From Acetobacteraceae bacterium AT-5844 (GTDB taxonomy: Bacteria > Pseudomonadota > Alphaproteobacteria > Acetobacterales > Acetobacteraceae): a stretch of DNA of 33,694 nucleotides. Both the position numbers and the translations under genes were made by a program. The stretch covers positions 1 to 33,694 of the forward strand of contig JH600062.1 of the NCBI GenBank assembly GCA_000245075.1, written 5' to 3'. Positions 4,274-33,694 of this stretch are shown piece after piece; position 1 is the stretch's first letter; each line of letters opens with the position of its first letter. The notes beneath the pieces are model-generated. The model saw only the letters and a list, made by a program, of their open reading frames with translations, was not told the DNA's origin and searched no databases.

Positions 4274-5434
4274 ATGACCACCGAGACCACCGCGCGTCCG
4301 ATTTCGCTCTTCGACATGAAGGCGCAGCAGGCGCTGATCCGCGCGGAGATGAACACCCGCATCGCCAAAGTGCTGGATAGCGGCGCCTTCGTGAACGGCC
4401 CCGAGGTCCGCGAGGTCGAAGAGAAGCTCGCCGCCTTTGCCGGCGCGAAGCACGCCGTGGGCGTCTCCTCCGGCACCGATGCGCTGCAGATCGCCATGAT
4501 GGCCGAGAAGATCGGCCCGGGCGACGCCGTGTTCCTGCCGGCCTTCACCTACACCGCGACGGCCGAGGTGCCGCTGGTGCTCGGCGCCACGCCGGTCTTC
4601 GTGGATGTGGCGGAAGATGGCTTCAATATCGACATCGCCGACCTGAAGCGCCGCATCGCGCTGGTGAAGGAGCAGGGCAAGCTGCGCCCCCGCGCCGTCG
4701 TCGGCGTCGATCTCTACGGCCTGCCAGCCGACTGGCCCGCGATCCTGGAGATCTGCAAGGCGGAAGGCATGTTCGCGCTGGATGACGCCGCCCAGGCCTT
4801 TGGCGGCGCGCTGGATGGCAAGCGCCTCGGCAGCTGGGCGACCGCGACGGCGCTGAGCTTCTACCCGACCAAAACCCTGGGCTGCTACGGCGATGGCGGC
4901 GCCATCCTGACCGATGACGCGGATCTGGCGGAGCTCTACCGCAGCCTGCGCACCCATGGCGAAGGCAAGACCCGCTACGAGGTGGAGCGCACCGGCATGA
5001 ACGGCCGCCTGGACACCCTCCAGGCCGCCATCCTGCTCTGCAAGCTGCCCTTGCTGGAACAGGAGCTGGCCTCCCGCGCCCGGATCGCCGGCTGGTATGC
5101 GGAGCGCCTGGGCGGCCATGTGGTCGTGCCAAAGGAGCGCCCGGGCGCCCAGTCCGCCTGGGGCCTCTACACCGTCATCTTGCCGGATTCCGCGACGCGC
5201 GACCGCGTGCAGGCGGCGATGAAGGAGCGTGGCGTGCCCAGCGCCATCTACTACCCGAAGCCACTGCACCATCAGCCGGCCTATGCGGGCGCCCACGCCT
5301 CCGGCCTGCCGAACGGGCCGGCGCTCTCCGTCAGCGAGGATCTGTGCACCCGCGTGCTGTCCCTGCCGATGCATCCGTACCTGGATGAAGGCCAGGTGGC
5401 GACGGTTGCGGATGCGCTGATCGCTGGTCTCTGA
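4274..5434 (+). CDS. DegT/DnrJ/EryC1/StrS family PLP-dependent sugar aminotransferase (WbpE-like)
   Basis: Transfers an amino group, usually from glutamate, to a keto-sugar nucleotide. The 386-residue protein has the family landmarks: GVSSGTDALQIAM near the phosphate-binding region, DDAAQAFG, and SFYPTKTLGCYGDGG with the PLP lysine at K200. The ATG at 4274 was chosen because GGAG lies at 4260-4263 and the family starts close to ISLFDMKAQ; the frame is open back to 4082 but that part overlaps the preceding gene. Beside a WbpA-like dehydrogenase it could aminate a 3-keto uronic acid as WbpE does, but the WbpB oxidase and WbpD acetyltransferase of that pathway are not in the window. The full repeat element follows 13 bases after the stop. 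Confidence 0.92.
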   Translation: MTTETTARPISLFDMKAQQALIRAEMNTRIAKVLDSGAFVNGPEVREVEEKLAAFAGAKHAVGVSSGTDALQIAMMAEKIGPGDAVFLPAFTYTATAEVPLVLGATPVFVDVAEDGFNIDIADLKRRIALVKEQGKLRPRAVVGVDLYGLPADWPAILEICKAEGMFALDDAAQAFGGALDGKRLGSWATATALSFYPTKTLGCYGDGGAILTDDADLAELYRSLRTHGEGKTRYEVERTGMNGRLDTLQAAILLCKLPLLEQELASRARIAGWYAERLGGHVVVPKERPGAQSAWGLYTVILPDSATRDRVQAAMKERGVPSAIYYPKPLHHQPAYAGAHASGLPNGPALSVSEDLCTRVLSLPMHPYLDEGQVATVADALIAGL

Positions 5435-5447
5435 TTGATCGGCATGG

Positions 5448-5710
5448 CCAGGGGGCGCTGCCCCCTGGACCCCCCACTGGGGTGACAGTGTCACCCAGAA
5501 CCCGCCATCTGTTTTGGACAGTGTGGCACGGTTGTTCCGCCGAGGGTCCTGGACCCTCGGCGACTGATGTCTCAGCCTGCGTGGCTTTTATAAAATCCTT
5601 TGAAAGTGCTGACTTCCAGCGCTCCGTTTCAGGCTCAAACACAGCCCTAATTCGAAGCGGGGTCCGGGGTGGACTTTCCACCCCGGCGGGGGCGCGGGGG
5701 CAGAGCCCCC
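5448..5710 (+). repeat. Dispersed five-hairpin 3'-UTR element, copy 1
   Basis: Begins 13 bases after the aminotransferase stop, between convergent genes. Hairpins in order: (i) CCAGGGGGC/GCCCCCTGG, 5448-5468; (ii) CTGGGGTGACA with a near-perfect partner, 5477-5498, one unpaired G; (iii) GCCGAGGGTCC/GGACCCTCGGC, 5539-5561; (iv) CCGGGGTGGA/TCCACCCCGG with loop CTT, 5664-5686; (v) GGGGGC/GCCCCC with loop AGA, 5696-5710. Between iii and iv is an A+T-richer core with TTTTATAAAATCCTTTGAAA. The same order recurs in copies 2 and 3. No coding frame is shared in a protein-like way. It may act as a terminator or RNA-stability element, or be a MITE-like sequence. Confidence 0.9.
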
Positions 5711-5724
5711 GCAGGCGCAAGGCA

Positions 5725-5901
5725 TCATTCGCCCAGCAATAAGCTCCCGCCCCAGGACAAGCCGAAGACCACTATAACGGCTACGATGGTTGCCAGGCCG
5801 GGTGCGCGGGCGGCCCTCTCCAGCAGCAATGCTGCCAGCCCTGCCAGGAGCGAGAACAGGAGAAACGCTACCAGCAGGCCGTTGAGGGCCACTTGCGTCA
5901 T
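5725..5901 (-). CDS. Small two-helix membrane protein, function unknown
   Basis: A 58-residue protein starting MTQVALNGLLVAF. It consists almost wholly of two hydrophobic segments (about residues 6-25 and 36-55) joined by a short loop with ERAARAPG. The ATG at 5901 overlaps the stop of the upstream small gene as ATGA, so the pair is probably translationally coupled; the frame is open to 5988 but that extension has no membrane-protein character. I do not recognise the family. It ends 15 bases from repeat copy 1. Size and topology fit a small inner-membrane accessory protein, but no function can be given. Confidence 0.6.
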   Translation of the reverse strand: MTQVALNGLLVAFLLFSLLAGLAALLLERAARAPGLATIVAVIVVFGLSWGGSLLLGE

Positions 5902-6137
5902 TCCCTGTCGCGCCGCCGGCGCCGCCGGATCGTGGCGCGCTCCAGGGGGGAGAGCGGCGCATACATTGCGCGGGCATCCCGCAGCCATGCTGTCCGGCTG
6001 CCCGGCGCGCCCGTTTCATAACCGAGGCGCGCGGGCTCCGCAGTCTGCGCCGCGGCATCCTTGGCCACGGGTGGGAACGCGGCCAGCCAGCCCATCAATG
6101 CCAAGGGCCAGAGTCGATTTGGCGGGGTGTCCGTCAT
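5898..6137 (-). CDS. Small protein with N-terminal hydrophobic segment and Arg-rich tail, function unknown
   Basis: The 79-residue product starts MTDTPPNRLWPLALMGWLAAF, which looks like a signal peptide or membrane anchor ending near AAAQT, and finishes with a run of six arginines before DRE. The ATG at 6137 is preceded by AGGAGGT, a strong ribosome binding site at slightly short spacing (4 bases); the frame is open up to 6197. It overlaps the downstream 58-residue membrane gene by 4 bases and is divergent from hrcA. I do not recognise the family. The hydrophobic segment followed by LRDARAMYAPLSPLERATI suggests a soluble or peripheral region of about 45 residues. Confidence 0.6.
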   Translation of the reverse strand: MTDTPPNRLWPLALMGWLAAFPPVAKDAAAQTAEPARLGYETGAPGSRTAWLRDARAMYAPLSPLERATIRRRRRRDRE

Positions 6138-6277
6138 GCGACCTCCTGACTGTTCCTCTGCCATACGGCCTTTCACACCACCTTCTTGAAACGGCATGAT
6201 GGCGCTGATGTGACAAGAATTTGCTCGCCTCTCTTCACACGCCGCACAAAGCTGTGAGTGAAGGGCCGTGCTGGCGC

Positions 6278-6315
6278 TTGACGCCAGGTGGTACGATCCC
6301 TAGCGTTTTACTAGG
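6278..6315 (+). promoter_or_regulatory. Probable hrcA promoter with overlapping inverted repeat
   Basis: TTGACG (6278-6283), a 17-base spacer and TAGCGT (6301-6306) form a plausible sigma-70-type promoter. The same bases can be read as CTTG-N17 followed by CCCTAG, loosely like an alphaproteobacterial heat-shock promoter. An inverted repeat CCTAG-N7-CTAGG (6299-6315) covers the -10 region and could be an operator. It is not a CIRCE element (TTAGCACTC-N9-GAGTGCTAA). Transcription start not determined. Confidence 0.45.
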
Positions 6316-6336
6316 TTTTCAAGGGGACCGCTTGAG

Positions 6337-7440
6337 TTGGGCGCACCGCCATTCTCCCGCGCTGGCTATCCGCGAGGTGCCCTGCCCAGGGATCTTGGAG
6401 GCACTCCCTTGCTTCCTGGCCTCGATAACCGCGGCGCGGCGATCCTGCGCCAGGTCGTCGAGCTTTATGTCGAGACAGGTGAGCCTGTCGGCTCCCGCAC
6501 GCTGTCCCGCCGCCTGCCGCTGACGCTTTCCCCGGCCACCATCCGCAACGCCATGGCCGATCTGGAAGAGGCCGGGCTGCTTTATGCGCCGCATACCTCC
6601 GCCGGCCGCCTGCCGACCGAGCAGGGGCTGCGCCTGTTCGTCGATGGCCTTCTGGAATTCGGGGACCTGACGGAGCAGGAACGCGAGGCGATCGCACTGC
6701 GCTGCGCCACCTCCGGCCGCAGCTACGAGGAAACGCTCTCCGAAGCAGGGCAGATGCTCTCCGGCCTCGCGGGGGCCGCCGGGCTGGTGGTGGCGCCCAA
6801 GACCGAGGCGCCGATCAAGCATATCGAGTTCGTCGCCCTCTCCCCTGGCCGCGCGCTGGTGGTGCTGGTGAACGCCCATGGGCAGGTGGAGAACCGCGTC
6901 ATCGAGGTGCCGGCGGGGCTGCCGCCCAGCGCCTTCACCCAGGCCTCCAACTTCCTCAACGCCCGCCTCTCCGGCCGCACGCTGGAGGAGACGCGCTCCC
7001 TGGTGGCGGAGGAAATCCAGGCCAACCGAAGTGCGCTGGACCAGTTGACGCAGCAGATGGTGGAGGCGGGCCTCGCCACGCGGGCGGGCGGCGGCGGCGG
7101 GTCACTGATCCTGCGGGGCCAGGCCAAGCTGCTGGAGAATCTGGACGAGCTGGCCCGCGTCCATGAAATCCAGCACCTGTTCGAGCGGCTGGAAGCGCAG
7201 GAAACCATGCTGCGCCTGCTGGAACTGGCCCAGCGTGGCCAGGGCGTGCAGATCTTCATCGGCGCCGAGAGCGGGCTGTTCGACACCACTGGCCTTTCCA
7301 TGATCGTGGCTCCCTTCCGCAACGGGGAGGAGCACATCGTCGGCGCCATCGGCGTCATCGGGCCCACCCGCATCAATTACGGGCGGGTCATTCCGGTGGT
7401 GGACTACACGGCGCAGGTCATCGGCCGCCTGCTGGGCTAG
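6337..7440 (+). CDS. hrcA: Heat-inducible transcriptional repressor HrcA
   Basis: HrcA binds CIRCE operators and represses chaperone operons (groESL, sometimes dnaK) at normal temperature. The 367 residues show the winged-helix N-terminus with VETGEPVGSRTLSRRLPLTLSPATIRN, followed by MADLEEAGLLYAPHTSAGRLPTEQG, which is diagnostic, and a C-terminal GAF-like dimerisation region ending with GPTRINYGRVIPVVDYTAQVIGRLL. The start is probably TTG at 6337: AAGGGGA lies at 6320-6326 and no ATG occurs before the DNA-binding domain. The N-terminus is therefore about 30 residues longer than usual. grpE, a common neighbour, is absent here: the next gene is a convergent transporter. Confidence 0.95.
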   Translation: MGAPPFSRAGYPRGALPRDLGGTPLLPGLDNRGAAILRQVVELYVETGEPVGSRTLSRRLPLTLSPATIRNAMADLEEAGLLYAPHTSAGRLPTEQGLRLFVDGLLEFGDLTEQEREAIALRCATSGRSYEETLSEAGQMLSGLAGAAGLVVAPKTEAPIKHIEFVALSPGRALVVLVNAHGQVENRVIEVPAGLPPSAFTQASNFLNARLSGRTLEETRSLVAEEIQANRSALDQLTQQMVEAGLATRAGGGGGSLILRGQAKLLENLDELARVHEIQHLFERLEAQETMLRLLELAQRGQGVQIFIGAESGLFDTTGLSMIVAPFRNGEEHIVGAIGVIGPTRINYGRVIPVVDYTAQVIGRLLG

Positions 7441-7499
7441 GCATTCGGGCACTTACGGCCAGAGGCAGCGCCACGCATTGGCCATGGGCTGGAGGCTGT

Positions 7500-9485
7500 T
7501 CACCCCATGCGCTCGGCGGCCAGCAAATAGGCGAGATGGCGCTCGTACTGAGCCAGTACGTCGGAAATCAGTTCGTCACGCCGGTAGCCCATGACGTCGT
7601 AGTCCTGCCCACCTTCACGCAGGAAAACCTCGGCGCGGAAATAGCGGTCCCGCCCCGTGGGCTGCGTGCCGTGCTCGATGTAAGCGAAGCTGGGCAGGGC
7701 ATAGCCGCGGGCACGGATGGCGTAGCGGAACTCGGCGGGCGTGCCTGCCATGGCCAGCAGACGAACACGCCCCTCCTCCTGCTGTATTTCCGCCTGTACC
7801 CCACGGTTCCGCAGTTCCGTGCACACCGCTTCCAGGGCCGGAATGGCGGTGTCGGACAAATAGTCCAGCACCTCTCTCTGCGTGGGGTGATGGAGGATGG
7901 CGTGTAGCTGACGCTGCCAGCTGACAGCCGTGGCGGCGCTGGCAGGCTGCGCCTGAAGGATGGATTCGCGCAGCGCTTCCCGCCGCAATGCCTTCAACAT
8001 GCCGTAGCAGATCAACAGCATGACAATCGCAAAGGGCAGAGCACTGGCGATGGTGGCCGTCTGTAAGCTTTGCAGGCCTCCGGCGAAGAGCAACACGGCG
8101 GCCACGACCCCGGACAGGACCGCCCAGAAAATCCGGCGCCATACTGGAGCACTCTCAACCCCGCCCGCCGTGATGGTGTCGATGACGAGAGCGGCCGAGT
8201 CGGCGGAGGTGATGAAGAACGTCACCACCAGCAGTGTCGCCAGCGCCGCGGTGAAAGTCGCCGCGGGAAACTGTTCCAGAAAGACGAAGAAGGCCAGAGG
8301 GACACTGGTGGCCACGGTCTCGGATACTGCCGTGGTTATTCCCGAGGTCTGGAGCCAGATGCCGGTATTCCCGAACACCGTCATCCACAGGAAGGTGAAG
8401 CCTGTGGGTACGAGCAGCACGCCGAGCACGAACTCACGGATGGTGCGGCCTCGCGAGATGCGCGCGATGAACATGCCCACGAAGGGAGACCAGGAAATCC
8501 ACCACGCCCAATAGAACAGGGTCCAACTCGCAATCCAGTCATTGGGCTCGTAGGCGTAGAGCATAAAAGTACGTTCGAAGAACTGGTCGATATACCCACC
8601 GGTATTCTGCACGAGGGCACGTAGCAGGAACGTCGTCGGCCCCAATACGACGACGAACAACAGCAGCAATGCAGCAAGGCCCATATTGAGCTCGCTGAGC
8701 CGACGAATACCAGCATCGAGCCCGGCTACGGCGGACATGGTCGCCATGCCTGTGATGGCTGCGATCAGCGCCACCTGAACTATCAGCGAATTCGGCACGC
8801 CCATCAAATGCGTCAGCCCCGCATTGATTTGCAGCACGCCGAGGCCGAGGGAAGTAGCAACGCCAAAGACGGTACCAAGCACCGCGAAGATATCGATGGC
8901 ATGGCCGATCGGGCCATGTATCCGATTACCGATCAGCGGATAAAACGCGGATCGGATCGTCAACGGCAAGCCATGGCGGAAGCCGAAATAGGCAAGCGAC
9001 AGACCAATGACGGCATAGATCGCCCATGCATGTATGCCCCAGTGAAAGAAGGTAAGGCGCATGGCCGTCCGGGCCGCTTCCAATGTCCCGCCCTCACCGG
9101 TGGGTGGGGTGGTGAAGTGCATGATCGGCTCCGCCACGCCAAAGAAAACGAGCCCGATCCCCATGCCTGCGCTGAAGAGCATGGCAAACCAGGACGAGTA
9201 GCTGAAGTCGGGCTCCGAATGGTTTGGCCCGAGCCGGACGGCGCCGTGGCGGCTGAAAGCCAGAAACACGACAAAGAACAGGAAAGCCGCCACTGAAAGC
9301 AGATAGAACCACCCCAGGCGGCTCAGGACCCAATCCTGGACCGCGTTGAAGAAGCGGCCGACCGCTTGCGGGGCCACCGCACCGCACAAGACAATCACGG
9401 CGATCAAGCAAGCCGATATGATGAAGACTGGTCCAAGGGAGGGTGACGGAGCTCCGTTCGGTGCGGTCTGACTATTGTGGGACAT
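7500..9485 (-). CDS. BCCT family choline/betaine-type transporter (BetT-like)
   Basis: A 661-residue inner-membrane secondary transporter for quaternary ammonium compounds such as choline, betaine or carnitine. The core has about 12 membrane helices, the glycine-rich substrate/ion motif GMGIGLVFFGVAEP at 108-120 and the family signature around 321-347 (WTLFYWAWWISWSPFVGMF, then IARISRGRT). A cytoplasmic C-terminal domain of about 140 residues, from roughly 520, is characteristic of the long BetT type, where it senses osmotic state. The M-G-I-G sequence is typical of H+-coupled choline carriers, so choline is the likeliest substrate. No betA/betB/betI genes are nearby. It is divergent from the GST gene across a 305-base gap and convergent with hrcA. 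Confidence 0.93.
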   Translation of the reverse strand: MSHNSQTAPNGAPSPSLGPVFIISACLIAVIVLCGAVAPQAVGRFFNAVQDWVLSRLGWFYLLSVAAFLFFVVFLAFSRHGAVRLGPNHSEPDFSYSSWFAMLFSAGMGIGLVFFGVAEPIMHFTTPPTGEGGTLEAARTAMRLTFFHWGIHAWAIYAVIGLSLAYFGFRHGLPLTIRSAFYPLIGNRIHGPIGHAIDIFAVLGTVFGVATSLGLGVLQINAGLTHLMGVPNSLIVQVALIAAITGMATMSAVAGLDAGIRRLSELNMGLAALLLLFVVVLGPTTFLLRALVQNTGGYIDQFFERTFMLYAYEPNDWIASWTLFYWAWWISWSPFVGMFIARISRGRTIREFVLGVLLVPTGFTFLWMTVFGNTGIWLQTSGITTAVSETVATSVPLAFFVFLEQFPAATFTAALATLLVVTFFITSADSAALVIDTITAGGVESAPVWRRIFWAVLSGVVAAVLLFAGGLQSLQTATIASALPFAIVMLLICYGMLKALRREALRESILQAQPASAATAVSWQRQLHAILHHPTQREVLDYLSDTAIPALEAVCTELRNRGVQAEIQQEEGRVRLLAMAGTPAEFRYAIRARGYALPSFAYIEHGTQPTGRDRYFRAEVFLREGGQDYDVMGYRRDELISDVLAQYERHLAYLLAAERMG

Positions 9486-9555
9486 GACGCCCTCCGGGTT
9501 CTGCCTTCCGCTTCAGCAAGCGACCCAGGCCCTGACGAGCCAAGCTGTCGCCTTC

Positions 9556-9569
9556 ACATGCCAGCATGT
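9556..9569. promoter_or_regulatory. Palindrome in the BCCT/GST divergent gap
   Basis: ACATGC-CA-GCATGT is a perfect 6-base inverted repeat 70 bases upstream of the transporter start. The position suits a regulator operator. No known consensus (including BetI) was recognised. The remaining gap (9486-9790) holds the two promoter regions, which I could not place with confidence, and no gene. Confidence 0.3.
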
Positions 9570-9790
9570 CCAAGGATATAACGAGGCAACGCCTTAGCTG
9601 GTCCCCGGTTGGCAGGAGGCTGACGAATTTCGCAAGCGGCCAACGCCGTTGGAAGCACGCGGAGCGCGATCGCCCAGACGGACCGGCCAAAGGCAGGAGC
9701 CTGGAGCATGATCCAGGCGCCGCTTTCGCGCCTTCCCTCCCCCCGGCGCTTCGTCCAGACTTCCGGCGCAGTCCCGGAACTGGAAAACCG

Positions 9791-10423
9791 ATGTCCCTGA
9801 CGATCTACGGCGTGCTCCGCTCCCGCGCCTCCCGCCCTATCTGGCTGGCCAAGGAACTGGGCCTGACCTACCAGCACGTCCCCGTCATCCAGGCCTATCG
9901 CCTGGCGGACCCGCTGGCCCTGGATGCGCCGTTCAACACGGTCTCGCCCGCCTTCCGGGAGATCAACCCCAACGGGCTGATCCCCTCCATCGAGGATGAC
10001 GGGCTGGTTCTGCACGAGAGCCTGGCCATCACCCTGTATCTGGCGCGCAAGCATGGCGGCCCCCTGGCCCCGAAGGACCTCGCCGAAGACGCCCAGGCCA
10101 TGATGTGGAGCCTGTGGGCCGCGACCTCGGTGGAGGAGCAGGCCCTCTCCATGCGCGCGGGGCCGGAAGCGATCGAGCGCGCCTTCCCGGGGCTGGACAA
10201 GCAGTTCGGCGTGCTGGCCTCCGCCCTGATGGCCGGCGGCGGCTGGCTGGTGGGCGGGCGCTTCACCGTGGCCGACCTGAACGTGGCGGAATGCGTGCGC
10301 TACGCCCAGTCCGCCCCCGCCCTGTTCGAGAAACATCCGAAAGTGAAGGCGTGGCTGGCCGCCTGCCATGCCCGCCCGGCTTTCCAGGCGATGTGGGCGG
10401 AGCGAGAGGCGGAGCCGGCCTGA
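9791..10423 (+). CDS. Glutathione S-transferase family protein
   Basis: A 210-residue protein with a thioredoxin-like N-terminal domain ([24 protein letters not shown]) and an all-helical C-terminal domain. The segment [27 protein letters not shown] contains the cis-proline (IPSI) and the E-S pair that binds the gamma-glutamyl part of glutathione. R-S-R-A-S-R follows strand 1; Ser11 or Ser15 may stand in for the catalytic Ser/Cys. Start ATG 9791 is just before the first beta-strand; the frame is open to 9566 but that part is not GST-like. Likely roles are conjugation or reduction of electrophiles; the substrate is unknown. Repeat copy 2 starts 25 bases after the stop. Confidence 0.9.
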
Positions 10424-10448
10424 ATTCTTCTTCCTCTGCCTCGGCCAA

Positions 10449-10710
10449 AGGGGGCTCTGCCCCCTCTGGACACCCCCGCTGGGGTGACAGTGTCACCCCA
10501 GACCCCGCCATCAGTTTTTTTCGATGCTAGGGCCGGTTCCACCGAGGGTCTGAGACCCTCGGCGACTGACGCCTCAGCCTGCATGGCGTTTTATAATTCC
10601 TTGAAATCGCCGCCGACTGGCGTGCCGCTTTGGCTTTGAGGTTCCAAAAACTCGAAGCGGGGTCCGGGGTGGACTTTCCACCCCGGCGGGGGCCTGGGGG
10701 CGGCGCCCCC
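10449..10710 (+). repeat. Dispersed five-hairpin 3'-UTR element, copy 2
   Basis: Same order as copy 1: (i) AGGGGGC/GCCCCCT, 10449-10465; (ii) CTGGGGTGACA/TGTCACCCCAG, perfect 11 bp with one-base loop, 10479-10501, then CAGTTTTTTT; (iii) CCGAGGGTCT/AGACCCTCGG, 10542-10562; (iv) CCGGGGTGGA/TCCACCCCGG, 10664-10686, identical to copies 1 and 3; (v) GGGGGC/GCCCCC, 10696-10710. The core keeps GGCGTTTTATAATTCCTTGAAA. It lies between the GST gene and the COG0523 gene, both plus strand, so it may insulate them. Confidence 0.9.
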
Positions 10711-10771
10711 CGCCTTCAAATCCTCCCGCACAGGGCATTCCTGCCCCGACACCCCGTGACCTTCCGGGGAA

Positions 10772-10789
10772 GGCGTATCATATAACGCC
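10772..10789. promoter_or_regulatory. Inverted repeat upstream of the COG0523 gene, candidate operator
   Basis: GGCGT-ATCATATA-ACGCC, with an A+T-rich centre in an otherwise G+C-rich region, 45 bases upstream of the start codon at 10835. The ATATAA centre could also be a -10 box. COG0523 genes are often controlled by Zur, whose sites are A+T-centred palindromes, but the match here is too weak to name the regulator. Confidence 0.3.
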
Positions 10790-10834
10790 CCAACCGATTG
10801 ACCGCCCTCAGTACCGGCAGGAAGATTTCTCCCC

Positions 10835-11821
10835 ATGAGCGACACCGATACCACCGTCCCCGTCACCGTGCTGACCGGCTATCTCGGCGCCGGTAAGACC
10901 ACGCTGCTGAACCGCATCCTCAGCGAGGAGCACGGCAAGAAATACGCCGTGGTCATCAATGAGTTCGGTGAGCTCGGCGTGGACAACGACCTCGTCATCG
11001 ATGCGGACGAGGAAGTGTTTGAGATGAACAATGGCTGCATCTGCTGCACCGTGCGGGGCGATCTCGTCCGCATCCTGAGCAGTCTGATGAAGCGTCGGCA
11101 GAAGTTCGACGGCATCATCGTCGAGACCACGGGCCTGGCCGACCCCGCCCCGGTGGCCCAGACCTTCTACATGGACGAGGATGTGAAGCGCGCCACGCGG
11201 CTTGATGCCATCGTCACGCTGGTGGATGCCAAGAACCTCGCCGCCCGGCTGGATGACAGCAAGGAAGCCGCGAGCCAGATCGCCTTCGCCGACATCGTCG
11301 TGCTGAACAAGATGGATCTGGTGACGGAGGAAGAGGCCGCCGAGGTCGAGCGCCGCATCCGCGCCATCAACCCCTATGCCGAAATCCGCCGCGCCACCAA
11401 GTCCGAGGTGCCGATCGAGGCCGTGATGGGCCGCGAGGCCTTCAAGCTGGAGCGCATCCTGGAGCGGGAGCCGGAATTCCTCTCCGGCGAGGACAACCAC
11501 TCCCACAACGAGGACATCATGAGCCTGTCCTTCGAGGTGGATCAGCCGCTGGATGAGGGCAAGTTCAACCAGTGGATCGGTGAGCTGCTGCAGGTGAAGG
11601 GGCAGGACCTGCTGCGCACCAAGGGCGTGCTGGCCTTCGAGGGACAGGATGACCGCTTCGCCTTCCAGGCCGTGCACATGATCGCGGATGGTGACTATAT
11701 CGGCCCCTGGCCGGAGGGCGCGGCCCGCAAGTCCAAGATCGTCTTCATCGGCCGTGACCTGAACCGCCCGCGCCTGCGCCGTGGCTTCGAAGGCTGCATC
11801 GCCGCGCCGGTGGCCGAATGA
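10835..11821 (+). CDS. COG0523/CobW-family GTPase, probable zinc metallochaperone
   Basis: G3E-family GTPase of 328 residues. It has Walker A G-Y-L-G-A-G-K-T-T near residues 15-23, the family metal-binding motif C68-I-C70-C71 in NNGCICCTVRGDL, ETTGLADPAP and the guanine-specificity motif NKMDL. A CobW C-terminal domain runs from about residue 230. A His/acid cluster (DNHSHNED) lies just before it and could bind metal. Family members deliver zinc, cobalt or other metals to client proteins; here no cobalamin genes are nearby, so zinc is the better guess. The stop overlaps the start of the WD40 gene as ATGA, so the products are made together. Confidence 0.92.
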   Translation: MSDTDTTVPVTVLTGYLGAGKTTLLNRILSEEHGKKYAVVINEFGELGVDNDLVIDADEEVFEMNNGCICCTVRGDLVRILSSLMKRRQKFDGIIVETTGLADPAPVAQTFYMDEDVKRATRLDAIVTLVDAKNLAARLDDSKEAASQIAFADIVVLNKMDLVTEEEAAEVERRIRAINPYAEIRRATKSEVPIEAVMGREAFKLERILEREPEFLSGEDNHSHNEDIMSLSFEVDQPLDEGKFNQWIGELLQVKGQDLLRTKGVLAFEGQDDRFAFQAVHMIADGDYIGPWPEGAARKSKIVFIGRDLNRPRLRRGFEGCIAAPVAE

Positions 11822-12855
11822 GCGAGACCGTCAACGACGCCGATTTCCTGCTGAGCTCCCGCGGCAAGGGCGAGGATCTCGGCGCCTGGGTAGTCGGCGC
11901 CACCTTCTCCCGCGATGGCAAGGCGGCCGCCTTTGCCCTGGGCGACGGCACGCTGCGCCTGGCCTCCACCGCCGAGCTGGCCGGTGAGTGGAAGCGCGTG
12001 GAAGCGCATGACGGCGCCTGCCTCTCCATGGTGGCGGATGTCGCGAGCGGCTTCCTCACGGGTGGCGATGACGGCCAGCTGCTGCGCACGGCGAATGACG
12101 GCAGCACCGAGGTCATTGCCAATCTCGGCACCATGAAGTGGGTGGACCATGTGGCCGCCCACCCGGATGGGCTGCGCGCCGCCTCCGTCGGCAAGAAGCT
12201 GCACCTCTTCGGCAAGGCCGGGAAGCTGCGGGAGATGGAGCACCCCTCTTCCGTCGGCGGCATCGCCTTCGACACCAAGGGCAAGCGGGTGGCGGCCGGC
12301 CACTACAATGGCGCCAGCCTGTGGTTCGTGAACAGCAAGGATGGCTCGCCCAAGGTCCTGCCCTGGAAGGGCAGCCACCAGGGCGTGTGGTTCAGCCCGG
12401 ACGGCACCCATGTCGTCACCACCATGCAGGAGAATTCGCTGCATGGCTGGCGGCTCTCGGACGGGCAGGACATGCGCATGTCCGGCTACCAGGCGAAGAT
12501 CAAATCCATCTCCTTCACCGCGAAGGGCCGCTGGCTCGCCACCGCGGGCGCGGATTGCATCGTGCTCTGGCCGTTCTTCGCTGGCGGCCCGATGGGCAAG
12601 CCGCCGATGGAGCTGGCCGGTGGCGACGGCATCCTTTGCACGCAGGTGGCCTGCCACCCGCAGCATGAGGTCGTGGCCGCCGGCTTCGATGACGGCCTGG
12701 TGCTGATGGCGGAAATCGCTTCCGGCAAGGTGGTGCCCGTGGCGGCCCCCGGGCGCGGCGCCATCTCCAGCCTGGCCTGGAACCCCGCCGGCACCCAGCT
12801 CGCCTTCGGGACAGAGACGGGCTTTGCCGGGCTGGTCGATCTGTCCAAGCGGTGA
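11818..12855 (+). CDS. WD40-repeat beta-propeller protein coupled to the COG0523 GTPase
   Basis: A 345-residue cytoplasmic protein with no signal peptide. About seven WD40-like blades can be seen, with recurring motifs such as GATFSRDGKAAAFALGDGTLRL, VAAHPDGLRAASVG, VWFSPDGTHVVTTMQ, SISFTAKGRWLATAGADCIVLW and SLAWNPAGTQLAFGTETG. WD40 propellers are protein-interaction scaffolds. The ATG at 11818 overlaps the GTPase stop by 4 bases. The tight coupling suggests it works with the GTPase, as client, partner or metal-loading platform, but no direct evidence is visible. A strong hairpin follows at 12875-12909. Confidence 0.85.
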   Translation: MSETVNDADFLLSSRGKGEDLGAWVVGATFSRDGKAAAFALGDGTLRLASTAELAGEWKRVEAHDGACLSMVADVASGFLTGGDDGQLLRTANDGSTEVIANLGTMKWVDHVAAHPDGLRAASVGKKLHLFGKAGKLREMEHPSSVGGIAFDTKGKRVAAGHYNGASLWFVNSKDGSPKVLPWKGSHQGVWFSPDGTHVVTTMQENSLHGWRLSDGQDMRMSGYQAKIKSISFTAKGRWLATAGADCIVLWPFFAGGPMGKPPMELAGGDGILCTQVACHPQHEVVAAGFDDGLVLMAEIASGKVVPVAAPGRGAISSLAWNPAGTQLAFGTETGFAGLVDLSKR

Positions 12856-12874
12856 GACACTGAGCGGGAACTTC

Positions 12875-12909
12875 GCCGGGGAGGTGCCACCGTTGGCGGC
12901 CTCCCCGGC
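12875..12909 (+). terminator. Strong hairpin after the GTPase-WD40 pair
   Basis: Outer stem GCCGGGGAGG/CCTCCCCGGC (10 bp) with an inner GCC/GGC stem. It sits 20 bases after the WD40 stop and 22 bases before the next start. There is no T-run, so it may be a weak terminator or an RNA 3'-end stabiliser. Confidence 0.5.
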
Positions 12910-12930
12910 TCCTCTGCCAAGGATTCCCGC

Positions 12931-13755
12931 ATGAACATCCCGGTCGAAAAAACTCCGCGGCTCACCATTCCCAAGCTCGGTCTGGGCACCTGGCAGCTGC
13001 GGGACGCGGAAGGGCAGAAATCGGTCGAGAACGCCCTCCGCCTCGGCTACCGGCACATCGACACCGCCGCCCGCTACGGCAACGAGGCCGAGGTGGGCAA
13101 CGCCATCCAGGCCAGCGGCGTGGCGCGCGGCGATATCTTCCTGACCAGCAAGGTGTGGTGGGAAAACCTGGAGCCGGAGCCGCTCTACCGCAGCCTGGAG
13201 AATTCCCTCTCCCTGCTGAAGACCGACTACCTCGACCTCTTCCTCATCCATTGGCCAACGCCGGCCATGGACCTGGAAGGCGCCATCAAGGTGCTGAAGG
13301 CGGCCAAGGACGCCGGGCAGATCCGCGCCTGGGGTGTCTCCAACTTCCCCGTCAAGCTGATGAAACAGGTGGAAGACCTCGGCGAGACACCGGCCGCGCT
13401 GCAGGTGGAATACCACGCGCTGCTCTCCCAGGCCGCGCTGCTGGAATGGTGCCGCCCCCGGCAGATCGTGCTGGAAGCCTACTCCCCCCTGGCCCAGGGC
13501 AAGCTGCAGGATAACGAGACCCTGGCGAAGATCGGCGAGAAATACGGCGCCTCCGCCTCCCAGGTCGCGCTGGCCTGGCTGCTGCGGCAACCGGGCGTGG
13601 TGCCCATCCCCAAGGCCAGCAGCACACGCACCCAGCAGGCGAACCTCGACGCCATTCCCCTGGCGGCGAAACTGACCGCCGAGGATGTGGCCGCAATCGA
13701 CGCGCTGCCGAAAGACCAGCGGATGGTGAAGCCGGATTTCGCGCCGGAATGGTGA
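12931..13755 (+). CDS. Aldo/keto reductase (2,5-diketo-D-gluconate reductase-like)
   Basis: NADPH-dependent carbonyl reductase with a TIM-barrel fold. The 274 residues carry the full catalytic tetrad: D44 and Y49 in HIDTAARYGNE, K74 in LTSKVW and H107 in LFLIHWPT. The cofactor-binding IPKASS motif is near the C-terminus. It resembles AKR5-type enzymes (DkgA/DkgB), which reduce 2,5-diketogluconate, methylglyoxal and other aldehydes. The start at 12931 fits because KLGLGTWQLRD follows at the usual distance. It is separated from the WD40 gene by a hairpin and probably has its own promoter; repeat copy 3 starts 9 bases after the stop. Confidence 0.92.
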   Translation: MNIPVEKTPRLTIPKLGLGTWQLRDAEGQKSVENALRLGYRHIDTAARYGNEAEVGNAIQASGVARGDIFLTSKVWWENLEPEPLYRSLENSLSLLKTDYLDLFLIHWPTPAMDLEGAIKVLKAAKDAGQIRAWGVSNFPVKLMKQVEDLGETPAALQVEYHALLSQAALLEWCRPRQIVLEAYSPLAQGKLQDNETLAKIGEKYGASASQVALAWLLRQPGVVPIPKASSTRTQQANLDAIPLAAKLTAEDVAAIDALPKDQRMVKPDFAPEW

Positions 13756-13764
13756 TGTGAGACA

Positions 13765-14018
13765 CCAGGGGCTCCGCCCCTGGACCCCGCTGGGGGGATA
13801 GTATCCCCCAGACCCCGCCATCAGTTTTTTGAGGCTGGTTGGTTCCGCCGAGGGTCTGAGACCCTCGGCGACTGAGGGCTCAGCCTGCGTGGCCTTTTAT
13901 AAATTCTTTGAAACCGCTGGCGTCCCGCGCCCCGCTTCCTGTCAGGCGAAGAACCAAACTCGAAGCGGGGTCCGGGGTGGACTTTCCACCCCGGCGGGGG
14001 CGCGGGGGCAGAGCCCCC
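13765..14018 (+). repeat. Dispersed five-hairpin 3'-UTR element, copy 3
   Basis: Same order: (i) CCAGGGGC/GCCCCTGG, 13765-13783, one base pair shorter than copy 1 on both arms; (ii) CTGGGGGGATA paired with TATCCCCCAG, 13790-13811, where two base pairs differ from copy 2 and both are compensated; (iii) GCCGAGGGTCT/AGACCCTCGGC, 13847-13869; (iv) 13972-13994, identical stem; (v) GGGGGC/GCCCCC, 14004-14018. Core GGCCTTTTATAAATTCTTTGAAA. GGACCCCGC (13782-13790) is also complementary to GCGGGGTCC (13965-13973), so the ends can pair. It lies between convergent genes (aldo/keto reductase and adenine deaminase). Confidence 0.9.
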
Positions 14019-14034
14019 GGCAAGAGCACCGCTC

Positions 14035-15831
14035 TCAGGCCGCTTCCCGCGCCTCCACCAGCGACGCCGGGATGGTCTCCCCCGTCCCGCCATCCGCCAC
14101 GCCGACATCCGTGACATGTGGCCCGGCATTGCAGGCGAGGGACGCGCCAACAATGGCCTTGAAGATCAGGTAGGGCGGCTTCCAGTCCGCGATACCTTCG
14201 GAGGCGGCCTTCACGGCAGCGAATTGCGCGGCGACCTCGCCGATCGGCGCATCGGAGAGCAGGCCGCAAATCGGCAGCGGCAGCAGGGCCGTCACCGCGC
14301 CGCCCTGGGCGACGGACATGCCGCCACCGCATTCGATCAGGGCGTTGGCGGCAGCGGCGAGGTCAGCCGGGTTCCGGCCGAAGACGACAAGGTTGTGGGA
14401 ATCATGGGCCACGGTGGTGGCCAGAGCCCCGCGCCAGCGGCTCCAGCCTTGCAGCACGCCGAGAACGGGCTTTGCCGGGAACAGGCCGTGGCGGTGGATG
14501 ACGGCCATGAAGATGCCGTCCTCCGGCAGGGCCGCCACACCGTCCTTCACCGGCACCTCGGCCTCGCCCCATTCGGTGAAGCGGGGGTTCACCACGGTGC
14601 GCAGCCGGGCGGTGCCGGTGGTGACCCCGGGGGTGAGGATGCGGAAATCCTCCGGCGAGAGCGGGGCCAGCTTCATGGTGTCGCGCAGGGGGCCGGCATC
14701 GGGCTCGGGGGGAAGCTCCACCAGCAGCCGGCCATTAGCGGCGACATGGCGGCCGGAGGCGAAGACATGCTTCACGTCCAGGCTTTCCAGCCCGTCCAGC
14801 AGGATCAGGTCCGCGCGGCGGCCGGGGGCGACGAGGCCGAGATCGGGGCGCTGGAAGCGATAGGCGGCGTTCAGCGTGGCGGCGCGCAGCACCTGCATCG
14901 GCGGCATGCCGTAGCGAACGAGGCGTTGCAGCAGGTCGATCATGCCGCCCTTGGCAGCGAGGTCGTCGGGGAAGGTGTCGTCGGTGCAGAGGGTAAGCGT
15001 CTGCGGATATTGCGGCAGGGTGGCGAGGGCCTGGACGCATTCCGGCAGCAGGTGGTCGTGGCTGCCGCGCAGCTCGACCGTGAAGCCGGCGCGGAGCTTT
15101 TCGAGCAGGTTGTCGCCGGAGACGATCTCGTGGTCCGAGCCGATGCCGGCACTCGCGAAAGCCTGGAGGTCCGGGCCGGTCAGGCTGCGGGCATGGCCGC
15201 AAACCAGCTTCTCCGCATCCAGCCCGGCGCCGACGATGCCGGCCATGCGCGGGCTGCGCTCGATGACGCCGCGCATGTCCATCACCTCGGCCACGCCGAC
15301 GATCTCTGGCCAGGAGAGCATTTCCTCCAGTTCGGCGGGGCCGAAATCGGCGCCGGCACGCTCCAGCCCAGGGGCGGAGGGAACGCAGGAGGGGGCCATC
15401 ACCAGGGCGCGCAGCGGCAGGCCGCGCATCGCCTCCAGCGCCCAGCGCACGCCGGGCAGGCCGGAGACGTTGCCGACCTCATGCGGGTCCCAGCAGATGG
15501 TGGTGGTGCCGTGGGGCACCACGGCCTCCGCATAGCGGCGCGGCGTGATCATCGAGCTCTCGACATGCATATGCGTGTCGATCAGCCCGGGGGCGGCGAT
15601 GAGGCCGGTGGCATCCAGCGTGGTGGCCGCATCCGCCCGGCTGCCGGGGGCGTGCACGCTGGCGATGAGGGGGCCCACCAGGCCGATATCGGCCGGGCGC
15701 AGCTCGCCGGTGGCCATGTCCGCCACCGTGGCGCCGGTGATCAGCGTATCGAAGGGGGCCTGCGCACGGGCGGCGCGGACTGCGCGGTCGCGCCGCGCCC
15801 TTTCATGCAGGTCGTGCGGTTCGCGGGTCAT
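14035..15831 (-). CDS. ade: Adenine deaminase
   Basis: Hydrolyses adenine to hypoxanthine and ammonia in purine salvage and breakdown. The 598-residue protein is an amidohydrolase with metal-binding D85-T-H-M-H89 (followed by VESSMITP), the DPHEVGNVSG motif near 115-124, GHARSLTG and SDHEIVSGDN, all in the order typical of bacterial Ade. The C-terminal domain has VAHDSHNLVVFG and GGGMSVAQGG. Start: ATG 15831 (MTREPHDLHERARRD); the frame stays open into the tRNA-Ala gene up to 15963, but that extension is tRNA sequence. It is transcribed away from the tRNA, after its terminator. With PuuE at 31852 it points to purine catabolism. Confidence 0.95.
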   Translation of the reverse strand: MTREPHDLHERARRDRAVRAARAQAPFDTLITGATVADMATGELRPADIGLVGPLIASVHAPGSRADAATTLDATGLIAAPGLIDTHMHVESSMITPRRYAEAVVPHGTTTICWDPHEVGNVSGLPGVRWALEAMRGLPLRALVMAPSCVPSAPGLERAGADFGPAELEEMLSWPEIVGVAEVMDMRGVIERSPRMAGIVGAGLDAEKLVCGHARSLTGPDLQAFASAGIGSDHEIVSGDNLLEKLRAGFTVELRGSHDHLLPECVQALATLPQYPQTLTLCTDDTFPDDLAAKGGMIDLLQRLVRYGMPPMQVLRAATLNAAYRFQRPDLGLVAPGRRADLILLDGLESLDVKHVFASGRHVAANGRLLVELPPEPDAGPLRDTMKLAPLSPEDFRILTPGVTTGTARLRTVVNPRFTEWGEAEVPVKDGVAALPEDGIFMAVIHRHGLFPAKPVLGVLQGWSRWRGALATTVAHDSHNLVVFGRNPADLAAAANALIECGGGMSVAQGGAVTALLPLPICGLLSDAPIGEVAAQFAAVKAASEGIADWKPPYLIFKAIVGASLACNAGPHVTDVGVADGGTGETIPASLVEAREAA

Positions 15832-15918: not shown

Positions 15919-15994
<76 letters not shown>

Positions 15995-17689: not shown

Positions 17690-17716
17690 AGAACCGCTGG
17701 GGTCCGCGAGGGTTAC

Positions 17717-17739
17717 GCCGAGGGTCCTGGACCCTCGGC
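17717..17739 (+). repeat. Isolated module iii of the dispersed hairpin element
   Basis: GCCGAGGGTCC/GGACCCTCGGC with a one-base loop T, identical to module iii of copy 1 and followed by the same CGACTG, 28 bases after the scoB stop. The other modules are missing; a normal terminator for the opposite gene follows. It is a fragment, or the minimal functional unit. Confidence 0.8.
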
Positions 17740-17837
17740 GACTGCACGTTCAGCCCGTGCTACCTTCAGATTCATTAAGGCTTCGTTATCCAGCCCTACC
17801 GTTCGGCCTGAAGCTCCACTCTGAAACGAACGGAAAA

Positions 17838-19059: not shown

Positions 19060-19222
19060 CGCGTTCTTCCCTGATGATGTCCTAGAAGAGGGATCTCCGT
19101 CCCTGCCGCAGTCTCTTCTTGGCTCATCCCGCCGGGCAAGTGTCGTCTTCGTAACGACCGTCCCGCGACGCGGCGCCCAGGCCCCGCCGTTCCGGCATTC
19201 CACGCCCTGCAACCGGCAGGGG

Positions 19223-19274
19223 GGTCCGGCAGGGGGCTTCCATCCCGGCAGGCCCCAGGGGGCGGGGCCCCTGG
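19223..19274 (+). repeat. Degenerate copy of modules iv-v of the dispersed element
   Basis: GGTCCGGCAGGGGGCTTCC followed by ATCCCGGC aligns with the GGTCCGGGGTGGACTTTCC/ACCCCGGC of the full copies. It is followed by CCAGGGG/CCCCTGG (19255-19274), similar to module i or v. Stem iv has lost pairing, so it looks like a decayed fragment in the pnp upstream region. Confidence 0.5.
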
Positions 19275-19631: not shown

Positions 19632-21836
19632 ATGTTCGACAATTATTTCCGCAAGGACATCAACTGGGGCGGCAAGACCCTGACGCTGGAGACGGGCAAG
19701 ATCGCCCGCCAGGCTGACGGCGCCGTCATGGCCCGCCTGGGCGACACCATCGTGCTCTGCACCGTGGTCGGCGCCCGCAGCGTGAAGCCGGGCCAGGACT
19801 TCTTCCCGCTGACGGTGAACTACCAGGAGAAGGCCTACGCGGCCGGCAAGATCCCGGGCGGCTTCTTCAAGCGCGAGGGCCGTCCCTCCGAGGCCGAGAC
19901 CCTGATCTCCCGCCTGATTGACCGCCCCATCCGCCCGCTGTTCCCGGAAGGGTTCCGCAACGAGGTGCAGGTCATCGCGACCGTGCTGTCGCACGACATG
20001 GAGAACAGCCCGGACATCGTCTCCCTGGTGGGCTGCTCCGCCGCGCTGACGCTCTCCGGCATTCCGTTCTTCGGCCCGGTGGGCGGCGCGCGCGTCGGCT
20101 ATATCGATGGCCAGTACGTGCTGAACCCGACGCTGGAGCAGATCAAGCAGTCCAAGCTGGACCTGGTCGTCGCCGGCACCGAGGAAGGCGTGCTGATGGT
20201 CGAGTCCGAGGCGCATGAGCTGACCGAGGAAGTGATGCTCGGCGCCGTGACCTTCGGCCATGCCGCGTTCCAGCCGGTCATCCAGGGCATCATCGAGCTG
20301 GCCGAGAAGGCCGCGAAGGAGCCGTGGGATCTGCCGGAGGAATCCGCCGAGACCGTGGCGCTGAAGAAGAAGCTGGCCGAACTCGGCGCCGCTTCCATCG
20401 GCGAGGCCTATAAGGAAACCCGCAAGCTCATCCGCCACAGCAAGGTGAGCGAGGCCAAGAAGGCGATCCTGGCTCAGCTGAGCGAGGAAGAGGCCGAGGC
20501 CGCCAAGGGCCTGCTGAAGGACCTGGAAGCGGATGTGGTCCGCAACGCCATCCTGGACACCGGCATCCGCATCGATGGCCGCGACACCAAGACGGTCCGC
20601 CCGATTGTGGCCGAGGTGCATGTGCTGCCCCGCGCCCATGGTTCCGCCCTGTTCACCCGCGGCGAGACACAGGCTCTCTGCGTGGCGACGCTGGGCACCG
20701 GGCAGGATGAGCAGATCATCGACCAGCTCGCGGGCGAGTACCGCGAGAACTTCATGCTGCACTACAACTTCCCGCCCTTCTCCGTGAACGAGACGGGCCG
20801 GATGGGCAGCCCGGGCCGCCGCGAGATCGGCCACGGCAAGCTGGCATGGCGCGCCATCCGCCCGCTGCTGCCGGAGAAGGAGAAGTTCCCGTACACCATG
20901 CGTGTGGTGTCCGAGATCACGGAGTCCAACGGCTCCTCCTCCATGGCCACCGTCTGCGGCACCTCCCTGTCGCTGATGGACGCTGGCGCGCCGCTGAAGC
21001 GCCCCTGCGCCGGTATCGCCATGGGCCTGATCAAGGAAGACCGTGGCTTCGCCGTGCTGTCCGACATCCTGGGTGACGAAGACCACCTGGGCGACATGGA
21101 CTTCAAGGTGGCCGGCTCCGAGGAAGGCATCACCGCGCTGCAGATGGACATCAAGATCACGTCCATCACGCCGGAGATCATGAAGATCGCGCTGGAGCAG
21201 GCCAAGCAGGGCCGCCTGCACATCCTGGGCGAGATGGCCAAGGGCCTCTCCGGCGCCCGCACGGATGTCGCCGGCAATGCGCCGAAGATCACCGTGATCA
21301 ACGTGCCGAAGGACAAGATCCGCGAAGTCATCGGCACCGGCGGCAAGGTGATCCGCGACATCGTGGAGACCACCGGCACCAAGATCGACATCGAGGATGA
21401 CGGCACGATCAAGATCGCGTCCACCAGCCCCGAGGCGACCCAGGCGGCGATCGACCGCATCAAGGGCATCACGGCCGAGGCGGAAGTGGGTTCGATCTAC
21501 AACGGCACCGTGGTGAAGACCGCCGATTTCGGCGCCTTCGTGAACTTCCTCGGCGCCAAGGACGGCCTGGTCCACATCTCCGAGCTGGCGAATGAGCGCG
21601 TCAACAAGACCGCCGATATCGTCAATGTCGGCGATAAGGTGAAGGTCAAGGTCATCGGCTTCGACGACCGCGGCAAGGTGAAGCTCTCCATGCGCGTGGT
21701 CGATCAGGCCACCGGCGCCGACATCACCGAGCAGGTCGGCGCCCGCCGCCCGCGCGCGGAAGGCGAGGAAGGTGGCGAGCGTGAGCCGCGCGGTGAGCGC
21801 CGCGAGCGTCGCGAGCGCCGCCCGCACCGCGACTGA
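19632..21836 (+). CDS. pnp: Polyribonucleotide nucleotidyltransferase (PNPase)
   Basis: Phosphorolytic 3'-5' exoribonuclease of the RNA degradosome. The 734 residues have the usual order: first RNase PH domain (from [14 protein letters not shown]), an all-helical linker, second RNase PH domain with [19 protein letters not shown] and [16 protein letters not shown] (catalytic/metal acids), a KH domain with IGTGGK near 566-571, and an S1 domain at about 619-690 ([19 protein letters not shown]). A basic-acidic Arg/Glu tail ends the protein. Start ATG 19632 has AAGGAA five bases upstream. Two hairpins follow the stop. Gene context is atypical: upstream is a divergent secreted protein in place of rpsO. 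Confidence 0.97.
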
Positions 21837-33655: not shown

Positions 33656-33669
33656 GATGGAAGGAAGGC

Positions 33670-33687
33670 TGGGGAAAGAATTCCCCA
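33670..33687 (+). terminator. Probable terminator hairpin after the aldolase gene
   Basis: TGGGGAA/TTCCCCA with loop AGAA, 14 bases after the stop. The window ends 7 bases later, so any T-run cannot be seen. Confidence 0.5.
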
Positions 33688-33694
33688 TCAAACG

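Follow-up and report, generated by a model that had tools for sequence, protein, structure and literature searches.

What is a long, hairpin-rich sequence doing at several places in one stretch of DNA, each time just behind the stop codon of a different gene? The question is raised by a window of 33,694 nucleotides (contig JH600062.1, positions 1 to 33,694) from Acetobacteraceae bacterium AT-5844, genome G000 in what follows. That gene ends can carry small palindromic repeats is known, and their role is still debated. The preliminary description of the window reported three full copies with a common hairpin order and spacing, beginning 13, 25 and 9 nt past the nearest stop codon, behind unrelated genes and twice between convergent ones; we confirm each of these points (last stop bases, as called gene ends, at 5434, 10423 and 13755). 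Copy 1 (place #2; 5448-5710, plus strand, core hairpin 5538-5562) lies between a DegT-type aminotransferase gene and a small minus-strand ORF (5725-5988), which is absent from our own gene calls and whose relatives adjoin the same aminotransferase in genomes G009 and G001. Copy 2 (place #10; 10449-10710, plus, core hairpin about 10540-10564) separates a GST gene from a cobW-like gene on the same strand (10835-11821), and copy 3 (place #1; 13765-14018, plus, core hairpin 13846-13870) separates an aldo/keto reductase gene from a minus-strand adenine-deaminase-like gene (14035-15831). Copy 3 is 81% identical to copies 1 and 2 (E 9.6e-62 and 7.6e-61) and is predicted to fold at -150.6 kcal/mol vs -114.6 for shuffled sequences, with 0 of 200 shuffles as low. 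Additionally, a degraded fourth copy (17700-17831, plus), which starts 10 nt past the stop (17689) of a plus-strand CoA-transferase gene, retains the core hairpin (17716-17740) and one right-end hairpin and has lost its left end. At the right edge of the window (33663-33694, minus) a further element, of another type (C, below), enters with its first 32 bases; it continues beyond the edge, with its core at G000:C153:33738-33863 (minus).

We show that the three copies belong to a family of composite intergenic repeats that is limited to one genus. The element, about 245-275 bp long, consists of two inverted, hairpin-rich end units of about 60 nt flanking a conserved core of ~130 nt; in copy 3 the left unit (13765-13826, plus) carries an outer and an inner hairpin, and the right unit (13954-14019, minus), an imperfect inverse of the left, an inner and an outer one. 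Three subfamilies (A, to which the three full copies belong, B and C) have the core in common and differ in their ends. Core matches number 88 in G000 at E<1e-5 (our R1 model was trained on the A and B copies of this genome), and across sister genomes of the one genus copy number runs from 0 to at least 150 (up to 150 candidates were scored in each genome), with different subfamilies expanded in different species (C accounts for 76 of 80 full matches in G001). In agreement with the earlier statement that no named family has this layout, a search of the window against Rfam 15 gave only tRNA at the gathering score, one A and one C copy gave only implausible matches below threshold, and no report of this repeat family was found in the literature searches made. 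A phage origin was rejected, one A copy having no match in a phage collection.

To judge from the alignments, the main hairpin of the core has been maintained through compensatory change: 97.9% of cells are paired, 6 of 11 pairs show double changes, and 126 cells are doubly changed vs 41.9 in shuffles, none of 500 shuffles reaching as high. RNAalifold retained the core hairpin alone in the A+B alignment, and the core together with two outer hairpins in the C alignment. Folds of single copies favour a long-range pairing of the element's two ends, the pairs of which are mostly conserved and hardly co-vary among 20 C copies.

Members of the family sit at gene 3' ends, and chiefly in the gaps that separate convergent genes. 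Among loci fetched round elements in G000 (like most of our counts, these come from loci chosen because they bear an element, with genes from our own caller, which misses small ones), elements occupy 53/67 of the convergent, 28/188 of the tandem and 3/59 of the divergent gene pairs (convergent vs divergent, p 1.6e-18). The corresponding occupancies are 33/48, 38/215 and 9/47 in G001, and 7/54, 13/229 and 0/55 in G009. Where an element end faces a stop, the median gap is 10 nt, and where it faces a start, 92 nt; 99 of 123 stop-facing ends vs 5 of 33 start-facing ends lie within 40 nt of the codon, so that the association with gene 3' ends first noticed in the window extends to the family, which is tied to these ends rather than to promoters. 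No sigma-70-like promoter was found at the elements in scans of 15 kb of the window and of two further loci, L101 and L104.

The single orientation seen in the window does not extend beyond it. There, each of the three full copies, and the degraded fourth as well, is in the sense of the plus-strand gene it follows, and this had suggested a strand-specific 3'-UTR module acting in the mRNA of the upstream gene. Genome-wide, however, the 28 copies in tandem gaps of G000 comprise 12 sense and 16 antisense, and over three genomes the figures are 38 vs 41 (p 0.82); moreover, the two ends of the element are alike, and at 2 of the 7 sites common to G000 and G001 the relative orientation is opposite. 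We therefore argue against such a module, which the orientation counts largely refute and which we regard as very improbable. Random orientation together with random position had been named beforehand as grounds for abandoning the idea; orientation did prove random, and position clearly did not. Integron attC-like cassettes, which the layout of the window might also suggest, are set aside on account of the same random orientation.

Considering position and symmetry together, we prefer to see the element as a two-sided gene-end boundary with slow turnover, a reading to which we give about an even chance. Each end unit would supply the adjoining gene with a transcript-end hairpin, and a single element could thus close both genes of a convergent pair; with two ends that are alike, orientation would be irrelevant. 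The convergent bias in three genomes and the tight packing against stops speak for this, as does the end unit on its own: relatives of the left unit of copy 3 occur alone in other genomes and on plasmids, and on each of two P. cervicalis plasmids the best place is a lone A end unit of ~60 nt, flanked by a pair of annotated convergent genes. Of 17 lone-unit loci examined in genome G004, 7 are convergent, 8 tandem and 1 divergent gaps, and 1 falls inside a called gene. (Spread by plasmids was set aside, given just these two P. cervicalis plasmids with 4 places, the best of which carry the end unit alone.) Further support comes from B and C ends, where hairpins are followed by outward T-rich tails: of the two loci scanned, L104 shows this on either side of its B copy, and L101 on one side of its C copy. 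Against it, the A copies of the window contain no canonical hairpin-plus-T-run terminator (15 kb scanned: 9 sites, 8.3 expected), and the whole-locus scans were near expectation (L101, 2 found vs 3.1 expected; L104, 6 vs 3.6). The family resembles intrinsic bidirectional terminators in placing hairpins right after both stops of convergent genes. It differs from them in that its two hairpin units stand apart, inverted about a conserved core, in being a dispersed repeat and in that no T run follows the hairpin in the A copies of the window. Single hairpins are present in element-free convergent gaps of the same genome, and 38 convergent gaps on C49 and C54 have no element; convergent genes therefore do not need it.

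Termination alone, moreover, leaves unexplained both the conserved core and the chromosomal distribution. Along the chromosome, copies cluster round parS, in the origin-proximal part: in G009, 23 matches lie in the 400 kb round parS vs 0 in the 400 kb opposite, the concentration is found also in G007, and 23 of 38 lone units in G004 lie within 400 kb of parS (p 1.6e-7). In addition, gene order between G000 and G009 is broken at 9 of 17 element-bearing pairs vs 7 of 97 others; between G001 and G009, however, breaks are not enriched at elements (1/15 with, 1/29 without). At syntenic sites of G000 and G001 the element is present in G001 only at 14, in both at 7 and in G000 only at 0, and for G000 and G009 in both at 3, in G000 only at 3 and in G009 only at 1. 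The junction of copy 1 exists in three states: an A element in G000, a C element in G001 and, in G009, a plain hairpin in a gap of 45 nt. Within the boundary reading, the element would be a tolerated site of inversion, because it touches gene ends only, at which repeated copies could recombine. Selection on its hairpin, or gene conversion between copies, might preserve the core as a putative folding or binding site, and turnover would proceed slowly, by gain, loss, flipping and replacement of one subfamily by another rather than by bursts. The covariation of the core bears on this with two reservations, that it would look identical for a DNA palindrome and that related copies are not independent.

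The main rival is a MITE-like origin, in which a non-autonomous repeat with inverted ends, formerly moved by a transposase, is confined by purifying selection to gene 3' ends, where it would do little harm; its hairpins would serve movement, and any effect on transcript ends would be a by-product. We consider this possible, if somewhat doubtful. The ~60-nt inverted ends, the uneven copy number within one genus, the syntenic sites filled in one species only and the expansion of different subfamilies in each species all fit, and to this extent they speak for the earlier suggestion of a selectively inserted MITE. Against it, traces of the machinery were not found: the Y1 (IS200/RAYT) transposase (PF01797), the one family searched for, is present in 0 of 6 genomes (5 of 14 control genomes were positive), and on this ground mobilization by a REPtron was rejected as well; no inverted end pair encloses a transposase in the sequence sampled from G000 and G001; and no target duplication was clear by eye at occupied and empty site pairs between species, where divergence is high. 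Nor were near-identical copies seen, the best pairwise identity being 0.916 in G000 (within subfamilies) and 0.898 in a G001 sample, which argues against a recent burst, and a hairpin apparently kept by compensatory change sits poorly with a purely selfish repeat. Bacterial MITEs such as ERIC, NEMIS and RUP (as outlined in PMC3733652) share with the family strong folding, an intergenic location, terminal inverted repeats and a length of 70-300 bp, and on length and inverted ends the element agrees with the definition of a MITE as a 70-300 bp non-coding sequence with terminal inverted repeats. Unlike them, the family is packed against stops on both sides, with random orientation and strongly biased position, and joins different ends to one core in three subfamilies.

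It is also conceivable, by analogy and with low probability in our view, that the element is a BIME-like DNA site that organises the chromosome: with a topoisomerase or nucleoid protein bound at its core, it would take up supercoils arising between convergent genes of the origin domain. For REP/BIME sequences of E. coli, PMC1525189 reports binding of gyrase and IHF and a position between convergent genes. The convergent position, the parS concentration in G009, G007 and the lone units of G004, and a core that is conserved and indifferent to orientation are in keeping with such a site; on the other hand, G001 copies occur also at sites matching C49 of G000, and since the core-less lone units of G004 show the parS bias too, that bias need not stem from the core. 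Like REP/BIME sequences, the family comprises dispersed palindromic repeats outside genes, with composite hairpin units, at gene ends and often between convergent genes. REPs as characterized in PMC1525189 and PMC3733652 are 20-40 bp long with a GTAG or CGTC tag, the GTAG type being tied to RAYT transposases, and PMC3733652 gives CGTC repeats as missing in Acetobacteraceae. The present family departs from REPs in its length of about 245-275 bp, in its conserved core of ~130 nt and in the absence of a Y1 transposase from the six genomes searched; nor was either tag seen by eye next to the outer hairpins, whether in the alignments of B and C or at A ends.

Finally, returning to the two-sided boundary, we suggest that the elements probably mark transcript ends and that they may ease chromosome rearrangement. 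A bolder proposal, which we think improbable, is that of a dispersed origin-domain module at convergent junctions: its core hairpin would change in step in all copies of a species, along with a trans-acting partner, and the module would insulate convergent genes near the origin and offer paired, gene-safe inversion sites that shape rearrangement of the origin region between species. The combination of stop-to-stop packing, ends so symmetric that orientation does not matter, a core that is conserved, parS concentration in more than one species and coincidence with synteny breaks in one species pair is not known to have been described and was not met in the literature searches made, and the parS concentration of copies and their coincidence with G000/G009 synteny breaks are new. 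Orthologous junctions that carry an A element, a C element or none are natural controls, so that the role of such repeats, be it in termination, in supercoiling or as selfish sequences, is testable in a genus with cultured species.

The three elements are present in the window at 5448-5710 (copy 1), 10449-10710 (copy 2) and 13765-14018 (copy 3), and the gene calls bear out the upstream genes (aminotransferase, GST and aldo/keto reductase) and the distances from their stop codons (13, 25 and 9 bases) of the preliminary description. The convergent setting it gave for two of the three copies likewise holds, the partner of copy 1 being a small minus-strand ORF (5725-5988), relatives of which adjoin the same aminotransferase in two other genomes of the genus, G009 and G001. 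With copy 3 as query, the two other window copies were recovered (E 9.6e-62 and 7.6e-61) together with many further places in the AT-5844 assembly (G000; 5,190,553 bases, 157 contigs), in which the window is bases 1-33694 of contig C153. The window also holds a minus-strand tRNA gene (15922-15994) and, upstream of a gene starting near 19632, a lone stretch (19208-19273) that matches the right end unit at 65%.

In oriented alignment, A-type elements run from an outer to an inner hairpin and then into the core, which consists of a hairpin GCCGAGGGTC..GACCCTCGGC, GACTG...CAGCC and an A+T-rich stretch; at the right end, an inner and then an outer hairpin form an inverted copy of the left end. For the core, a covariance model trained on 17 A and 7 B copies (24 in all) gave at least 106 G000 matches at E<=0.01 (best 150 of 3094 first-look candidates scored), of which the 88 with E<1e-5 form our working set; the 18 left out are a diverged element (C153:46750, on the window's contig), one weak C12 match and 16 matches of 25 nt, in which the palindromic hairpin was hit again on the other strand of copies that the set contains anyway. 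Sorting was automatic, after which four C copies were moved out of A by eye, and it yields three subfamilies that share the core: 19 copies are A, 36 are B and 31 are C, with 2 left unsorted. The B ends are GGGGGAATGAATTCCCCC and CTGGAGGGAGAATTCCTTCTCCCTCCAG, and the C ends GGCTGGGGAAAGAATTCCCCAGACCCC plus its near inverse. Since diverged elements in convergent gaps at C153:46697 and C153:61035 were missed at E<1e-5, the true G000 number lies above 88. Within one end of 5 of the 88 elements (C127:3464, C153:33738, C44:22954, C91:14692 and C115:31849) lies a second perfect palindrome, ATCAAACGTATACGTTTGAT, which looks like an insertion into the end hairpin; 32 bases of the second of these elements fall inside the window (33663-33694), and a variant occurs in a G001 element. 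Contig ends and assembly gaps (stretches of 20 N) frequently lie within elements (e.g. loci L074, L080 and L087; contig ends C153:97567, C155:1 and C108:1), as expected if the hairpins are hard to sequence.

The position of these elements relative to genes is strongly biased. A called gene lies on both sides of 85 of the 88 places, in 54 convergent, 28 tandem and 3 divergent settings; in the fetched G000 loci, chosen for holding elements, the occupied gene pairs are 53/67 convergent, 28/188 tandem and 3/59 divergent. Of the 14 convergent gaps left empty, 11 are shorter than 60 bp, and a degraded end is present in one of the remaining three. Over longer stretches, the model finds 4/11 convergent pairs occupied in C153 bases 1-87354 (plus the diverged variants at 46697 and 61035), 2/6 on C150, 0/2 on C155 and 0/38 on C49 (200 kb) and C54 (100 kb), the last two having one match each just outside the stretches used. 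In 380 kb of G001 contigs chosen for hits, 80 full elements (about one per 4.7 kb; dense contigs C54, C97, C89, C66 and C73) occupy 33/48 convergent, 38/215 tandem and 9/47 divergent pairs, and in the 400 kb round the G009 parS-like sites the counts are 7/54, 13/229 and 0/55 (convergent vs rest, p 0.026). For 78 full G000 elements the median distance is 10 nt to a facing stop (99/123 within 40 nt) and 92 nt to a facing start (5/33); the G001 medians are 23 nt (67/102) and 156.5 nt (3/54).

The preliminary description had the elements always in the upstream gene's orientation. Sense/antisense counts in tandem gaps are 12/16 in G000, 5/8 in G009 (after joining split hits) and 21/17 in G001, together 38 to 41 (p 0.82), and this balance, which fits the symmetric element ends, removes a strand-specific reading. 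End units also occur alone. In G004, a further genome of the genus, no core match was found at E<=1e-5 and there are at least 42 lone-unit matches (40 of 66 candidates scored); of the 17 loci examined, 7 lie in convergent, 8 in tandem and 1 in divergent gaps, and the last is within a called gene. A plasmid search with copy 3 gave 4 places on two P. cervicalis plasmids, the best on each being an A end unit of about 60 nt flanked by annotated genes in convergent arrangement (M20 aminoacylase and PHB depolymerase on one plasmid, peroxidase-related enzyme and ArsR regulator on the other).

The family also has a place on the chromosome. Pairs of parS-like sites, found with a parS consensus and taken here as an origin marker, occur in G009 (705 kb), G007 (749 kb), G004 (3.022 Mb) and G000 (C153:44407-44468); since the last is 10.7 kb right of the window, the window is probably near the replication origin. 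On a 3.565-Mb G009 contig, all 14 core matches fall between 0.168 and 1.07 Mb; in G007 the 16 matches leave a 2.1-Mb arc empty (p 6e-5, simulation on a closed circle); and of 38 lone units on the 3.777-Mb G004 contig (40 matches, two pairs merged), 23 are no more than 400 kb from parS (p 1.6e-7). When two equal 400-kb G009 samples were searched with profiles, the one round parS had 23 hits (20 elements) and the opposite one had none. G000 genes, a set mostly drawn from round elements, have 149 reciprocal-best matches to these samples, 139 of them near parS and 10 far. The limit to the parS region is not absolute, since part of C155, an element-bearing contig, maps to the far sample, and G001 also has elements where the corresponding parts of C49 have none.

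Gene order was compared over adjacent G000 pairs with both genes mapped to G009, 67 of 84 element-bearing pairs being unmappable. Broken pairs number 9/17 with an element vs 7/97 without (p 2.6e-5; 9/20 and 7/102 with profile-based detection), the remainder being 3 near and 5 adjacent with an element, and 2 and 88 without. The G000/G001 figures are 5/16 and 2/80; G001/G009 pairs show no break enrichment at elements (1/15 vs 1/29). The copy 3 neighbours correspond to G009 genes 221 (left) and 245 (right), and at both 3' sides there a weak match to A remains (31.2 and 23.4 bits). Three A copies (ranked places 6, 9 and 43) have the same site and relative orientation in G009. Syntenic G000/G009 sites are occupied in both genomes at 3, in G000 only at 3 and in G009 only at 1; for G000/G001, fragments included, the numbers are 7 in both, 14 in G001 only and 0 in G000 only. 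Among the 7 shared sites, read by eye, orientation is the same at 4, flipped at 2 and ambiguous at 1, and subfamily differs at 2. The copy 1 junction has an A element in G000 and a C element in G001, in the same relative orientation; in G009 the gap there measures 45 nt and holds a plain hairpin. The two most similar copies are 0.916 identical within the subfamilies of G000 and 0.898 identical in the sampled G001 sequence. A search of six genomes for the Y1-transposase family PF01797 gave no match, and in the sampled G000 and G001 sequence none of the inverted end pairs surrounds a transposase; the one G001 pair with a called gene inside holds what is presumably an aldolase-like enzyme. Across 100 family genomes (99 genera), core matches (E<=1e-5, strict filters) occur only in G000 and, weakly, in one genome of another genus, and the exact hairpin pattern in a named genome collection was found in two stretches, both of P. 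ludipueritiae.

Further, the core hairpin appears constrained. Seven genomes of the genus supply 165 matches, and in the best 150 of these 97.9% of cells are paired vs 92.4% in shuffles, 6 of 11 pairs show double changes, and doubly changed cells number 126 vs 41.9 (0/500 shuffles as high), a signal abolished by sliding the partner strand; it would be equally expected from a DNA palindrome, and the copies are related, hence not independent. The hairpin is mostly CCGAGGG/CCCTCGG in aligned G000 A copies and CCGGAGG/CCTCCGG in most G009 A copies printed, as expected if copies of one species change in concert. A terminator model accounts least well for the parS bias and for a hairpin common within species and changed between them; the window's A copies have no canonical T run, and in the two loci scanned the B and C ends form hairpins that point outward and carry T-rich tails. 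An origin as a MITE would be in keeping with a gene-end role and may be the source of the family. Because of their position, the lone units and the outward B and C hairpins with T-rich tails, we suggest that the element ends act as hairpins at the ends of the two genes they abut, with the core as a conserved site for a putative partner.
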